Source of the DNA: Flavobacterium microcysteis | GTDB lineage: Bacteria; Bacteroidota; Bacteroidia; Flavobacteriales; Flavobacteriaceae | Direction of reading: 5' to 3' | DNA: 64,000 nucleotides | Assembly (NCBI RefSeq): GCF_006385255.1 | Contig: NZ_VFJE01000056.1 | Span: 248,001-312,000, forward strand | In this document: piece after piece, positions 45,307-51,086 of the stretch | Position numbering within the stretch: the first letter of the stretch is position 1 | Layout of the letters: every line of letters starts with the position of its first letter | Position numbers and translations under genes: made by a program | The notes under the pieces: generated by a model | What the model saw: the letters and a program-made list of their open reading frames with translations, nothing else | Databases searched by the model: none | Told to the model about the DNA's origin: nothing

Positions 45307-45377
45307 TGGCCTATGGTGTAATGGTAACACAGCTGATTTTGGTTCAGTCGTTCTAGGTTCGAGTCCTAGTAGGCCAA
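45307..45377 (+). tRNA. tRNA-Gln (anticodon TTG)
   Basis: A 71-base cloverleaf: acceptor TGGCCTA (45307-45313) pairs with TAGGCCA (45370-45376), discriminator A45377. The D-arm region has TGGTGTAATGGTAACA, the anticodon loop is TTTTGGT between a GCTGA/TCAGT stem, and the T arm has AGGTTCGAGTCCT. The anticodon TTG reads CAA and CAG glutamine codons. No CCA is encoded. It is a single-gene unit with its own promoter and terminator. Confidence 0.96.
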
Positions 45378-45380
45378 CAA

Positions 45381-45409
45381 AAAACCTCTCAGATTTGAGA
45401 GGTTTTTTT
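45381..45409 (+). terminator. Terminator after tRNA-Gln (bidirectional)
   Basis: AAAACCTCTCA (45381-45391) pairs with TGAGAGGTTTT (45396-45406) around GATT, with a T run to 45409. It also lies just beyond the stop of the converging universal stress gene. Confidence 0.92.
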
Positions 45410-45427: not shown

Positions 45428-46252
45428 TTAAATCTTGAAAGTAACGACTGGTCTCTGAGCATGATTGACCAAATCTTCACTAATGCTTCCGTTAAAGAAA
45501 TGGGAAAGTCCTTTTCTTCCGTGTGTGCTCATTCCAATTAAATCGGCATTGATGCTTTTTGCGAAATTCAGCACTCCTTTTTCTACGTTAGTATCGTTGT
45601 AGATGTGGAATGTGTAGTCGCTGATATCGAAATTGGCAACGAAATCCTGCATGATTTTGTTAGAAAGGTCCGTTGACTTGAAGCTGTTTGGGGTGTTGAT
45701 CATTACCAGATTCAGGTGGGCGTTGAATTTTTTTGCAAAATCAACCACTTTTGCAAACGAGCTTTTTATCTCATCGCTAAAGTCAGATGCAAAAACAAAT
45801 TTTTCTACGCTGAATTCTCCTTCTTCTTTTTTGATGACCAAAACTGGAATATCTGAAGAACGAACAACCTTTTCAGTGTTTGACCCGATAAACATTTCCT
45901 GGAAACCACTAGCTCCATGTGAACCCATAACGATAAGGTCTACATTGTTTTTTTTGCTGATGTTGATGATTCCTTCGAATGTTTTTTCGAACTGTATAAT
46001 TTCTGAAACCTGTATTCCTTCAAGATAGCTGATGTCCATCAGGCTCTCCAGTTTTTCGATAGCCTTGTTTTTGAAAAACATGATTTCAGGAATGTCGCTT
46101 CCGGAGCCAATAGCGTCACTTCCTTGTCCCGGAAGTTCAAGCATGTGAAGAAGCACAATCTCTCCATGATTTTTTTTAGCAATCTGGGCGGCAACTTTTA
46201 GGGCGTATTCTGCATGGTCAGAAAAATCGGTTGGAACTAAAATTTTTTTCAT
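45428..46252 (-). CDS. Double universal stress protein (two UspA domains)
   Basis: 274 residues with two tandem Usp domains. Domain 1 opens M-K-K-I-L-V-P-T-D-F-S-D-H-A and has the nucleotide-binding loop M-G-S-H-G-A-S-G-F-Q-E-M-F-I-G-S. Domain 2 has F-V-F-A-S-D-F-S-D and M-S-T-H-G-R-K-G-L-S-H-F-F-N-G-S. Both G-x2-G-x9-G-[ST] loops are intact, so ATP binding is likely in both. Such cytosolic proteins accumulate under stress or stationary phase, with no known single reaction. It stands alone on the minus strand between the tRNA and rimP. Confidence 0.93.
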   Translation of the reverse strand: MKKILVPTDFSDHAEYALKVAAQIAKKNHGEIVLLHMLELPGQGSDAIGSGSDIPEIMFFKNKAIEKLESLMDISYLEGIQVSEIIQFEKTFEGIINISKKNNVDLIVMGSHGASGFQEMFIGSNTEKVVRSSDIPVLVIKKEEGEFSVEKFVFASDFSDEIKSSFAKVVDFAKKFNAHLNLVMINTPNSFKSTDLSNKIMQDFVANFDISDYTFHIYNDTNVEKGVLNFAKSINADLIGMSTHGRKGLSHFFNGSISEDLVNHAQRPVVTFKI

Positions 46253-46342: not shown

Positions 46343-46373
46343 TTTTCAATATAGAAAAAAAACACTATATTTG
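46343..46373 (+). promoter_or_regulatory. Promoter of the rimP-nusA-infB operon (TTTTC-N-TATATTTG)
   Basis: TATATTTG (46366-46373) is a perfect TAnnTTTG box, with TTTTC near 46343-46347 about 19 bases upstream in the -33 position. Predicted transcription starts near 46380. Confidence 0.65.
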
Positions 46374-46401
46374 CAGCGTTATTTATTAAAACTTAAATAA
46401 T

Positions 46402-46427
46402 GAGGGGACAAATAGTCCCCTCTTTTT
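46402..46427 (+). terminator. Terminator-like hairpin in the rimP-nusA-infB leader (possible attenuator)
   Basis: GAGGGGAC (46402-46409) pairs perfectly with GTCCCCTC (46415-46422) around AAATA, followed at once by five Ts (46423-46427). It lies after the operon's TATATTTG box and 9 bases before the rimP ATG at 46436. The upstream neighbour is divergent, so it cannot be that gene's terminator. Confidence 0.8.
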
Positions 46428-46435
46428 ATAAAAAT

Positions 46436-46900
46436 ATGACATTTAAGGAAAAAGTTAGCGAGTTATTAAAAGCAGGTCTGGAAGAAAAACCGTCCATTTT
46501 TCTTATTGATCTTACAATTACGGATGCTTTCAAAATTATTGTTACTTTAGATGGTGATAATGGTGTAACTTTGCAGGACTGTATTGATATCAGCCGTGCT
46601 ATAGAACACAATCTCGACCGTGAAGAACAGGATTTTTCTTTGGAAGTAGCTTCAGGAGGCGTTTCGGCTCCGCTAAAACTGGTAAGACAGTATAAGAAAA
46701 ATTTGGGTAGGACGCTACAGGTAAAAACTGCAACCGACATTATAACTGCAGAACTTGTTGATGCTAATGAAGAATTTATCACATTGGCCTGGGCTGCAAG
46801 AGAACCGAAAAAAATAGGTAAGGGAAAGGAAACTGTCGAGAAGAGACAAGAAATTCCGTATACCGACATAAAAGAAGCAATTGTTACAATAACATTTTAA
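46436..46900 (+). CDS. rimP: Ribosome maturation factor RimP
   Basis: The ATG at 46436 gives 154 residues beginning [19 protein letters not shown]. The in-frame ATG at 46400 would add 12 residues encoded by the leader hairpin and is rejected. The family pattern is visible: [22 protein letters not shown] and [12 protein letters not shown]. RimP assists 30S assembly. It is the first gene of the classic rimP-nusA-infB unit, with nusA 14 bases downstream. Confidence 0.95.
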
Positions 46901-46914
46901 TTTAAAGAATAGGC

Positions 46915-48159
46915 ATGGAGAATATTGCATTAATCGAGTCATTTTCAGAGTTTAAAGACGACAAGCTGATTGATCGTGTAACGCTTATGGCGATTTTGGA
47001 AGATGTGTTTAGAAATGCACTGAAGAAGAAGTACGGTTCTGACGACAACTTCGATATCATTATCAATCCTGATAAAGGTGATATGGAAATTTGGAGAAGA
47101 AGAGTTATTGTAGCGGATGAGGATCTGGATTTCGAAAATGAAGAAATTACATTGACCGAAGCAAGAAAAATCGAGCCGGATTTCGAAATTGGAGAGGAAG
47201 TTTCTGAAGAGGTTAAATTAATCGACTTAGGAAGAAGAGCGATCCTTGCTTTGCGCCAAAACCTGATTTCAAAAATACATGAACACGATAATACGAATCT
47301 TTATAAGCAATTTAAAGATTTAATTGGCGATATTTATACTGCAGAAGTGCACCACGTACGTCCAAGAGCTGTAATTTTGGTGGATGATGAAGGAAACGAA
47401 ATCGTGCTTCCGAAAGAAAAACAGATTCCATCTGACTTTTTCAGAAAAGGAGATAACGTTCGAGGAATTATCGAAAACGTGGAATTGAAAGGAAATAAGC
47501 CTCAGATTATCATGTCTAGAACATCTGAGAAGTTCTTAGAGAAATTGTTTGAACAGGAGATACCTGAAGTATTTGACGGATTGATCACAATTAAAGGTGT
47601 GGTTAGAATTCCAGGTGAAAAAGCAAAAGTAGCTGTAGATTCATACGATGACAGAATTGATCCGGTTGGTGCTTGTGTGGGTATGAAAGGTTCAAGAATT
47701 CACGGTATCGTTCGTGAATTAGGAAACGAAAATATTGATGTTATTAATTATACAACTAATACGCAATTGTTTATTACAAGAGCATTGAGTCCTGCTAAAG
47801 TTTCTTCTATCAAAATAAACGAAGAAACAAAAAGAGCTGATGTTTTCTTGAAATTGGAAGAAGTATCGAAAGCAATCGGTAGAGGCGGACACAATATCAA
47901 ATTGGCGGGTCTTTTGACAGGATATGAATTGGATGTTATCCGAGAAGGCAATGTAGCTGAAGAAGAAGATGATGTTGAATTGACAGAGTTCTCTGATGAG
48001 ATCGATGCTTGGGTAATCGAGGAATTTGCGAAAATTGGCCTTGACACTGCAAGAAGTATCTTGAAACAAGATGTTAATGATTTAGTTAGAAGAACAGATC
48101 TTGAAGAAGAAACGATCCTTGATGTAATCAGGATTTTAAAAGAAGAGTTCGAAGACTAA
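46915..48159 (+). CDS. nusA: Transcription termination/antitermination factor NusA
   Basis: 414 residues. The N-terminal RNA-polymerase-binding domain is followed by an S1 domain (near 135-200, T-A-E-V-H-H-V-R-P-R-A-V-I-L) and two KH domains (G-A-C-V-G-M-K-G-S-R-I-H-G-I-V-R-E-L and G-R-G-G-H-N-I-K-L-A-G-L-L-T-G). A short acidic C-terminal extension replaces the repeats of E. coli NusA, as usual in Bacteroidota. NusA slows RNA polymerase and strengthens intrinsic hairpin termination. This makes the leader hairpin of its own operon a logical feedback target. Confidence 0.97.
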   Translation: MENIALIESFSEFKDDKLIDRVTLMAILEDVFRNALKKKYGSDDNFDIIINPDKGDMEIWRRRVIVADEDLDFENEEITLTEARKIEPDFEIGEEVSEEVKLIDLGRRAILALRQNLISKIHEHDNTNLYKQFKDLIGDIYTAEVHHVRPRAVILVDDEGNEIVLPKEKQIPSDFFRKGDNVRGIIENVELKGNKPQIIMSRTSEKFLEKLFEQEIPEVFDGLITIKGVVRIPGEKAKVAVDSYDDRIDPVGACVGMKGSRIHGIVRELGNENIDVINYTTNTQLFITRALSPAKVSSIKINEETKRADVFLKLEEVSKAIGRGGHNIKLAGLLTGYELDVIREGNVAEEEDDVELTEFSDEIDAWVIEEFAKIGLDTARSILKQDVNDLVRRTDLEEETILDVIRILKEEFED

Positions 48160-48203: not shown

Positions 48204-51086
48204 ATGTCTGAAGAAAGAGTAATAAGAATAAACAAGGTTTTAAGGGAATTGAATATTTCGCTGGATAGAGCCGTTGACTATCTTAAGGATAGGGGTATTG
48301 CTATTGATGCAAACCCAAACGCAAAAATATCTGACAAGGAATATGATATTCTGCAAAGTCAATTTGCTGGCGATAAGGGGAGAAAAGAGGCTTCAAAAGA
48401 AGTTGGGGAAGAGAAAAGAAAAGAAAAAGAGGCATTGCGTGTTGAAAGAGAGCGTGAAATAGAGGAGAAACGCAAACAAGAAGAAGAACGCCAACGTCAA
48501 GAAGTTATCAAAGCTAAGGCTGTATTGAGCGGTCCTAAGCAAGTGGGGAAAATCGATTTGGAACAAAAAGCTCCTGCGACTGAACCAGCACCAAAAGCCA
48601 CTGAGCCAACTCTTGCTCCAGAAAAACCTGCTGAACCTGTAAAAGAAACTGTTGAAAAACAAGAGGTTGCTGCTCCGGTTGAAACACCAAAGCCGCCTGT
48701 AGAAGTTGCTAAGGAAGAAGCGAAGCCTGAAGTTGTGAAGGCAGTAGAGAAAGTAGAGAAAAAAGAAACGGTTGTGCCAAAAGCGGAAACTAAGGATGCT
48801 AATGAGCAGCCAGTTGTTGAAGAGGCAATAGCGACTCAGTATCAGAAATTGACAGGAACTACTTTTACGGGCCAGACAATTGACTTGTCTCAATTTAACA
48901 AGCCTAAAAAGAAGAAAGAAGATCCGAAGCCGGCTCCAAACAGACCGGGAACTCCTGGTGCTGCTGGTGCTAATGCAAACAACAACAATAATAAGAATAA
49001 AAGGAAAAGAATTCCTGGAAAACCTGGAACTCCGCAAGGAGGTGGGCAGCAAGGTCAACAGACTGGAAATGGTCCTCGTCCGGGTGGTGGCAATAACGTG
49101 GGCGGAAATAACGCAAACAGAAATGCCAGACCAGGGTTTAATAAAGGTAACAGACCTGCTGTTGTCGCAAAAGTTGAGCCGACAGAAGAAGAGGTTAAAA
49201 ACCAAATCAGAGAGACCTTAGAAAAACTCCAAGGAAAAGGGAATAAGTCTAAGGCGGCTAAATACAGAAGAGACAAAAGAGATACGCACCGTCAGAAATC
49301 TGATGACGAGCAAAGAGCATTAGAAGAAGGAAGCAAAACAATCAAGGTGACAGAATTCGTTACTGTAGGTGAAGTTGCAACTATGATGGATGTGCCAATT
49401 ACTAAAGTTATTGGTACGTGTATGGCTCTTGGAATCATGGTAACCATGAACCAGCGTTTGGATGCTGAGACTTTATCAATCGTAGCAGATGAATTTGGCT
49501 ATGACGTTGAATTTATTACAACTGATATTGAAGAAGCGCAGGAAATTGTTGAAGATAGAGAAGAAGACTTGGTGACAAGAGCTCCGATAGTTACAGTAAT
49601 GGGTCACGTTGACCACGGTAAAACTTCCCTGTTGGATTACATTCGTAAAGAAAACGTAATTGCTGGTGAATCTGGAGGAATCACGCAACACATTGGTGCT
49701 TATGCGGTGACTCTTGATAACGGACAGAAAATTACATTCCTTGATACTCCTGGTCACGAAGCGTTTACAGCGATGCGTGCGAGAGGTGCTCAAGTAACCG
49801 ATATTGCAATTATCGTAGCAGCAGCTGACGATGATATCATGCCGCAAACCAAAGAAGCAATCAGTCATGCTCAGGCAGCTGGTGTTCCAATGATTTTCGC
49901 AATTAACAAGATTGATAAGCCAGCAGCTAACCCTGAAAAAATCAAGGAGCAATTGGCGGGAATGAACTTATTGGTTGAAGATTGGGGTGGAAAATACCAG
50001 TCACATGATATCTCAGCTAAAGTTGGTACCGGAGTTAAAGATCTTTTGGAAAAAGTGTTACTTGAAGCAGAAATCCTTGACTTAAAAGCCAACCCTTCTA
50101 AACCAGCAGTAGGTACTGTTGTAGAAGCGCAGCTGGATAAAGGTAGAGGTTATGTGACTACAATCTTGGTTCAGGCCGGAACATTAAAAGTAGGTGACTA
50201 CGTATTGGCTGGTAAAAACCACGGTAAGGTTAAGGCAATGTATGATGAAAGAGGAAATGCGGTTAAAGAAGCAGGTCCTTCAACGCCAATCTCGATTCTT
50301 GGTTTGGATGGCGCGCCAACAGCTGGTGACAAGTTCAACGTTTTTGAAGATGAAAGAGAAGCGAAGCAAATTGCAGCTAAGAGAACACAATTGATCCGTG
50401 AGCAATCTGCCAGAACTAAGAAACATACAACTCTTGCAGAACTTGGAAGAAGAATTGCATTAGGTCAGTTTAAAGAATTGAATATTATCATCAAGGGAGA
50501 CGTTGACGGTTCTGTTGAAGCATTGGCGGATTCATTCTCTAAACTATCTACTGAAGAAATCGAAATCAAGATCATTCATAAAGGTGTTGGTGCGATTACA
50601 GAAACTGATGTTAACTTGGCTTCTGCGTCTGATGCGATTATTATCGGATTTAACGTTAGACCTTCAGGTAATGCGAAGCAATTGGCAGAGAAAGAAGAAA
50701 TCGATATCCGTAACTACTCAATCATCTATGATGCAATTGACGACCTGAAAGATGCGATGGAAGGAATGCTTTCTCCTGAAATGAAAGAAGAAATTACCGG
50801 TACTGCAGAAATTCGTGAAACATTCAAAATTTCTAAAGTGGGTACGATTGCAGGATGTATGGTTACTGACGGAAAAATCTTCAGAAGTTCTAGAATCCGC
50901 TTAATCCGTGACGGAGTAGTTATCTACACTGGCGAATTGACAGCCTTGAAACGTTTCAAAGATGATGTTAAAGAAGTGTCGAAAGGATATGATTGCGGTA
51001 TCCAAATCAAAGGTTATAATGACATCGAACAGATGGATATTATCGAAGCCTTCCAGGAAGTTGCAGTTAAGAAGAAACTGAAATAA
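48204..51086 (+). CDS. infB: Translation initiation factor IF-2
   Basis: 960 residues. A short helical N-terminus ([13 protein letters not shown]) is followed by a low-complexity region to about residue 390: a Glu/Lys/Arg-rich coil, Pro/Ala/Glu-rich stretch and Gly/Asn/Pro-rich stretch. The GTPase starts near 466 with G1 [13 protein letters not shown]2 G-G-I-T-Q-H-I-G, G3 D-T-P-G-H-E, G4 N-K-I-D-K. Domains II to IV end at K-K-K-L-K. It places fMet-tRNA on the 30S. The gene ends the operon and is followed by a strong terminator. Confidence 0.97.

Follow-up and report, generated by a model that had tools for sequence, protein, structure and literature searches.

The rimP-nusA-infB genes of Flavobacterium microcysteis are preceded by a predicted promoter-proximal intrinsic terminator, and this terminator is probably an attenuator at which NusA raises termination and so limits its own operon. 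Four lines of evidence support the attenuator reading, namely the anatomy of the leader, its conservation, covariation in its inner stem and its link to nusA; we infer the start site, termination in the cell, its partial efficiency and the role of NusA as sensor. Coordinates refer to the window, the whole stretch of 64,000 nucleotides analyzed (contig NZ_VFJE01000056.1, positions 248,001 to 312,000).

Anatomy of the leader and its genes

The leader terminator hairpin, P2 (46402..46422, plus strand), reads GAGGGGAC-AAATA-GTCCCCTC and is recognized by sequence, fold, conservation and covariation. On inspection its stem is perfect, with eight pairs, six of them G-C, formed by arms at 46402-46409 and 46415-46422 around the 5-nt loop AAATA. 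A T5 tract (46423..46427, plus strand) and then ATA follow, and a transcript of roughly 50 nt is predicted to be released at the T5 tract. Upstream, on the same strand, the rimP promoter box TATATTTG (46366..46373), a −7 box of the Bacteroidota sigma-A type, can be read directly, and such a box also stands before the stem in relatives. The spacing from box to P2 is 28 nt, and 13 nt lie between the hairpin and the rimP ATG at 46436. A perfect eight-pair stem with T5 between box and rimP start had been claimed in the preliminary description; all of its coordinates were reproduced, and the observation of a real rimP leader hairpin is confirmed. Because TAnnTTTG is stated to sit at −12 to −5 in F. 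psychrophilum in the main text of PMC9723704, we place the transcription start near 46378 and the RNA end at roughly +50.

A 64-nt leader folds with −19.8 kcal/mol (z −4.95), and one of 200 shuffles was equally stable. The window has a single copy of the motif GGGGAC-N3..7-GTCCCCTCTTTT, which is also the only one in the 4.06-Mb genome, and none of 100 dinucleotide shuffles contains it. Likewise, a covariance model of the terminator scored the rimP site with 51.3 bits in the window's own genome and the runner-up with 31.1; most of the next-best sites were ordinary terminators, flanked by an A-tract on the 5' side and a T-tract on the 3' side. By general terminator criteria P2 is one of three terminator-like sites in a 2-kb stretch, against a shuffle mean of 1.0 (sd 1.1), and the hairpin is detected on the minus strand too, there with a poor tail. 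A window-wide survey of other leader terminators returned three sites, all without a TAnnTTTG box; it missed rimP, for which it used the mechanical start at 46400, and was set aside.

The presumed operon lies on the plus strand and consists of rimP (46436..46900; NCBIfam NF002531 RimP, 212.4 bits), nusA (46915..48159; TIGR01953 NusA, 362.5 bits), whose product is the presumed effector and target of the feedback, and as third gene infB for IF-2 (48204..51086; TIGR00487 IF-2, 814.3 bits). The closest named match to this NusA comes from F. macacae (99% identical). A gene like those of universal stress proteins (UspA-like; 45428..46252, minus strand, matches below curated cut-offs) serves as context only. 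As it is divergent, P2 is not the 3'-end terminator of this upstream gene.

The mechanical rimP frame begins at an in-frame ATG at 46400, which makes it 12 codons longer and carries it across the hairpin. Automatic annotation may place the rimP start there; the start common to relatives is 46436. A leader peptide from the ATG at 46400, which overlaps the stem start, was considered and rejected, since this ATG is absent from many leaders outside the genus.

Conservation across Bacteroidia

Leaders of the genus, the family and the order were taken from RimP searches with region fetches and from named loci. The rule applied to them was a TAnnTTTG, any in the fetched stretch being allowed, followed within 45 nt by a G/C-rich hairpin with a T-tract. 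This arrangement stands before rimP in 136 of 138 Flavobacterium leaders (shuffled stretches, 1 in 680), in 65 of 68 leaders from other genera of the family (1 in 325) and in 25 of 29 leaders from the order outside this family (1 in 125). The genus set combines 60 of 61 leaders from the RimP genome search with 78 of 80 named loci, with near-identical genomes in both, and its two misses are leaders cut by contig ends. The 68 family leaders, 28 best-scoring and 40 hand-chosen, come from 138 genomes matched outside the genus; the 29 order leaders are every match outside the family in the RimP search.

All four misses in the order (L142-L145) belong to one genus, in which the hairpin is longer and interrupted. 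The simple GAGGGGAC hairpin is missing from them. Visual inspection suggests that ATTTACGGAAAA, ahead of the G-rich hairpin, might base-pair with TTTTTTCGTA..GTAAAT behind it and so mask the U-tract, and the arrangement is possibly a different switch.

For the other families of the class we scored 56 leaders from 52 families, four of them sampled twice, which were chosen from the listed RimP matches after the model matches had been seen, and thus not blind. A hairpin of this kind, with a T-tract and with GGG in its 5' arm, was found in 50 of these 56 and in 0.36% of shuffles. All 50 carry a TAnnTTTG or TAnnTTCG box at most 60 nt upstream of the hairpin, and GGGGAC is present in 30. The same detector found no hairpin in the other six, among which L277 keeps the GAGGGGAC hairpin without a proper T-tract and L307 has a GGAGG...CCTCC hairpin with a T-tract. 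The same arm sequence GAGGGGAC recurs in many families, and the distance from stem to gene differs widely within the class.

R1, a covariance model of the terminator, was run over 247 class genomes. Among the matches listed, 67 genomes had both R1 and RimP, and in 40 of them the best R1 match lay just upstream of the RimP domain. R1 also matches ordinary terminators: 55 of the 98 matches listed for genomes with a listed rimP lie away from rimP, ten entries on the opposite strand of a listed site being left out of the R1 count.

Covariation and exchange of the inner stem

Alignment A1 holds 86 distinct Flavobacterium leader sequences from 136 of 168 loci; 32 loci did not fit, 29 of those from outside the genus. 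Both A1 and the model alignment A2 were selected with patterns in which the outer stem and the T-tract are fixed, so that invariance there is no evidence; the inner stem is free in A1. Over both helices of A1, 95.5% of the cells are paired, and pairing falls to 44-63% if the partner is slid by 1-3 columns. Cells changed on both sides number 116, of which 114 are in P2, compared with 38.9 (sd 8.5) in column shuffles. An alignment of orthologous leaders had been suggested earlier as a check for covarying stems, and by this count the inner stem of P2 does covary. Two stricter measures are weak: pairs with a double change number 7 versus 5.1, with 10 of 500 shuffles as high, and further pair types 18 versus 16.7, with 102 of 500 as high.

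The outer GAGG/CCTC is constant, and the inner stem is GGGGAC (or GGGGGC), GGGAAGC or GGCACGC, with pairing preserved and few intermediates between the three sequences in Flavobacterium. On a quick rimP+nusA tree (FastTree, 106 loci) these three types require at least 13 changes; well supported branches force 8, 6 and 6 changes for the three stem labels. In L089 and L094, which are close on the tree, the sequences from promoter to stem and from stem to rimP are identical and the stems differ. Elsewhere in the family, two leaders (L196, L234) have a stem G-C flipped to C-G.

Hairpins with GGGAAGC and GGCACGC also occur away from rimP in some genomes, GGGAAGC in the window's genome too, and it is possible that swapped stems were copied from other terminator sites. 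Possibly only three sequences fit as inner stem. If true, this would point to direct reading of the stem by NusA or the polymerase, and not to hairpin stability alone. The most far-reaching version, in which one ancestral nusA-feedback terminator runs through the Bacteroidia, its stem is read as sequence and exchange in Flavobacterium is limited to GGGGAC, GGGAAGC and GGCACGC, is a tentative proposal that we rather doubt. The repeated swaps of whole stems nevertheless provide a natural set of variants for what NusA and RNA polymerase read in terminators.

Proposed mechanism and strength of the terminator

According to the proposed mechanism, RNA polymerase would start about 5 nt past TATATTTG and make a leader of about 50 nt, at the end of which it would meet a strong G-C hairpin and a short U5 tract. 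Some polymerases would stop there, and the remainder would enter rimP-nusA-infB. NusA bound to the polymerase would increase the stopping fraction, so that surplus NusA lowers nusA transcription, and attenuation would work without any antiterminator. In the window, the longest pairing of the pre-stem leader with either arm of P2 is 3 nt, and hence we see no antiterminator partner upstream. Downstream, one 7-nt match to an arm, with four G-U pairs, lies in a T-run of rimP.

Of 136 genus leaders, 133 have a T-run of 5; elsewhere in the family and order its length is mostly between 4 and 8. For comparison, 119 other hairpin-T sites in the named loci, a set that includes both strands of one hairpin and related loci, have a median T-run of 6 and more A before the stem. 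A T-run of at most 5 is not special, as 36 of these 119 sites share it. In mean strength score the leader hairpin (23.0) exceeds the other terminators found in these loci (19.7). NusA-dependent terminators reportedly tend to have weak hairpins (Mondal, 2016), and the strong leader hairpin therefore counts against NusA dependence. Distal interruptions of the U-tract are frequent among the NusG- and NusA-dependent terminators of B. subtilis (PMC8060035). The combination of a strong hairpin and a short U-tract with an interruption is consistent with intermediate, tunable termination.

Such a terminator could also be a fixed brake without any sensing function, lowering transcription of the operon by the same proportion at all times. 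The near uniformity of stem strength and T-run in the genus would suit this, as would the fact that neither a ligand site nor an antiterminator is seen. However, a weaker promoter would achieve a constant reduction just as well, and the recurrence of the GAGGGGAC arm in many families suggests selection beyond strength. We consider a fixed brake unlikely.

The terminator in genomes without recognizable rimP

Genomes without rimP separate the candidate sensors. We queried 30 Bacteroidia genomes without a RimP match for NusA and found nusA in 23. We left out two of these that lie at a contig edge, one that is masked and two (G334, G412) in which a rimP-like ORF precedes nusA, and scored the remaining 18. 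The RimP search can thus miss genes, as G334 and G412 demonstrate. A second search of the 18 scored genomes gave no RimP_N match above cut-off; four had weak ones below it. Nor did the longest frame in the 750 nt before nusA resemble RimP.

In 12 of these genomes the 160 nt before nusA contain a hairpin with a G-rich arm and a T-tract. In 11 of them it lies 23-59 nt before the extrapolated nusA start, behind a promoter-like box (loosened pattern) and with no space for rimP. The twelfth call (L336) was discounted, being 108 nt away with no box before the hairpin. With the same detector, the controls gave one call among 41 other mechanical ORFs of these loci and none in shuffles. The 11 hairpins adjoining nusA come from four families (f1, f6, f31 and f76).

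The scanned stretch yielded no such leader in the remaining seven: nothing was detected in six, and the seventh is the discounted call. L344 has a hairpin about 190 nt upstream, beyond the scanned stretch; L337 and L338 have, by eye, GGAGG...CCTCC and TTTGTT further upstream of nusA, which the rule did not count. No hairpin was found before nusA in L330, L333 and L351. The loci L333, L337 and L338, all of one family, have no recognizable rimP, and their reading frame is longer than the NusA of the window. Leader control may be changed or gone in this lineage.

In most genomes without rimP the terminator remains with nusA, and judged from its position it tends to go with nusA rather than with rimP. 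That the hairpin stays with nusA when rimP is absent argues against RimP and for NusA as the sensor. Feedback on the leader by RimP, IF-2 or the state of the ribosome, in place of NusA, has in its favor that both proteins are encoded in the same gene cluster, and RimP is mentioned as a possibility in the main text of PMC2965389. Yet the 11 hairpins stand before nusA in genomes with no recognizable rimP, an argument against RimP, and this kind of feedback altogether appears quite improbable. The argument does not extend to IF-2, which could still be involved; this factor is not known to act on terminators.

Feedback by NusA itself, as put forward in the preliminary description, is likely given the conservation, the covariation of the inner stem, the lack of a visible antiterminator partner and, above all, the nusA-adjoining hairpin in 11 of 18 genomes. 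It stands as the best reading of the leader terminator, although the idea was already in print.

P1 and possible roles of the leader RNA

P1 is a putative weak A-U hairpin, GUUAUUUA / UAAAUAAU (46378..46401, plus strand), that adjoins P2 at the presumed RNA 5' end and was recognized by folding in Flavobacterium only. In the 86 aligned sequences 96.1% of its cells are paired and only two cells are changed on both sides, the 5' arm being partly in the selection pattern. RNAalifold did not call P1 in the alignment. The mean folding z of the pre-stem segment is −2.5 in the genus, −0.6 in the family and about 0 in order and class, which gives no support to P1 as a shared part of the leader beyond Flavobacterium. 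P1 as a palindromic DNA operator is disfavored by its loop lengths, 7 to 12 in the 86 sequences.

The hairpin might instead act after transcription, by protecting the mRNA 5' end or controlling rimP translation. Its position 13 nt from the start codon, the presence of P1 at the presumed 5' end in Flavobacterium and L277, which keeps the stem with no proper T-tract, would agree with this. The nearly constant T-run of 5 in the genus, with at least 4 in most other leaders, and the highly variable distance from stem to gene in the class speak against it, and we regard such a role as very improbable. That the short terminated RNA regulates other transcripts is extremely unlikely: a discrete RNA of some 50 nt is predicted, and the corresponding S. 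agalactiae operon has a short leader RNA (PMC4448216), but sequence variation is unrestricted in the loop and, outside the genus, in the upstream segment, and no conserved seed is seen outside the stem.

Relation to known leaders

The idea of NusA feedback through the leader is not new, as it has already been published for the same operon in other bacterial groups. The rimP-leader of Naville and Gautheret (2010) is, in the main text of PMC2965389, the commonest attenuator of their survey, a G-rich/C-rich hairpin with a T-stretch that lies 4-130 nt from the gene, has no visible antiterminator and has NusA as best candidate sensor. This main text has no words beginning with Bacteroid or Flavobact. 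The window element is similar in that it, too, precedes rimP-nusA-infB, where its transcription is presumed, and in its G-rich 5' arm, C-rich 3' arm and T-stretch with no visible antiterminator. The signature given there, GGGc...gCCC, appears to differ, if read strictly, from GGGGAC...GTCCCC in the window. Most Bacteroidia leaders have GGGGAC...GTCCCC, and some relatives have GGGC...GCCC.

In B. subtilis, NusA is autoregulated through NusA-stimulated termination in its leader, as cited in a review (PMC12288461). There a NusA effect is reported, and for the window element one is predicted; the B. subtilis leader measures 180 nt (PMC2965389, main text), compared with about 50 nt predicted here. 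For S. agalactiae gbs0413-gbs0418, PMC4448216 describes a short and a long RNA with a common start and intrinsic termination 31 nt after it, and proposes NusA feedback. This leader is from another phylum and has RNA-seq evidence, in contrast to the Flavobacterium leader, which is predicted. Closest in origin is a structured rimP 5' element of F. psychrophilum, found also in other Flavobacteriaceae genera and without an Rfam match (PMC9723704). It shares gene and genus with P2 and is presumably the same element, the main text of that paper giving neither mechanism nor sequence.

In E. coli, GGGC-UUUAG-GCCC with a T-run stands about 17 nt upstream of annotated rimP; this leader differs in a second hairpin-T site upstream and in metY before it. 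The B. subtilis nusA attenuator is said to work without an antiterminator (Mondal, 2016). The preliminary description had called the sequence unrelated to the enterobacterial leader and suggested independent evolution. We drop this claim, since a layout shared across the class is similar to that of the general rimP-leader, and GGGC...GCCC occurs in some relatives as it does in E. coli.

We conclude that P2 is a well-conserved Bacteroidota example of an already known kind of leader, and by analogy the Bacteroidia element likely works like the known nusA/rimP leader attenuators. Among the matches listed in our literature search, which covered mostly open-access main texts, none described a terminator linked to NusA ahead of rimP or nusA in Bacteroidota. 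New here are the class-wide range, the nusA link in genomes without rimP and the repeated three-way stem exchange in Flavobacterium. This extends the proposed widespread control of the core transcription factor NusA to Bacteroidia, a class with promoters unlike those of model bacteria.

Rfam includes an enterobacterial rimP leader; no rimP family was among the leader matches with E up to 10. The best leader match, SraG, had 26.8 bits where 50 are needed, and membership of P2 in an Rfam family was rejected, as no family reaches its gathering score. At gathering score, Rfam finds only a tRNA in the window. At 45307-45402 lie a tRNA gene and, behind it, a hairpin that has T-runs on both strands (stem from 45385) and sits between the tRNA gene and the 3' end of the UspA-like gene.
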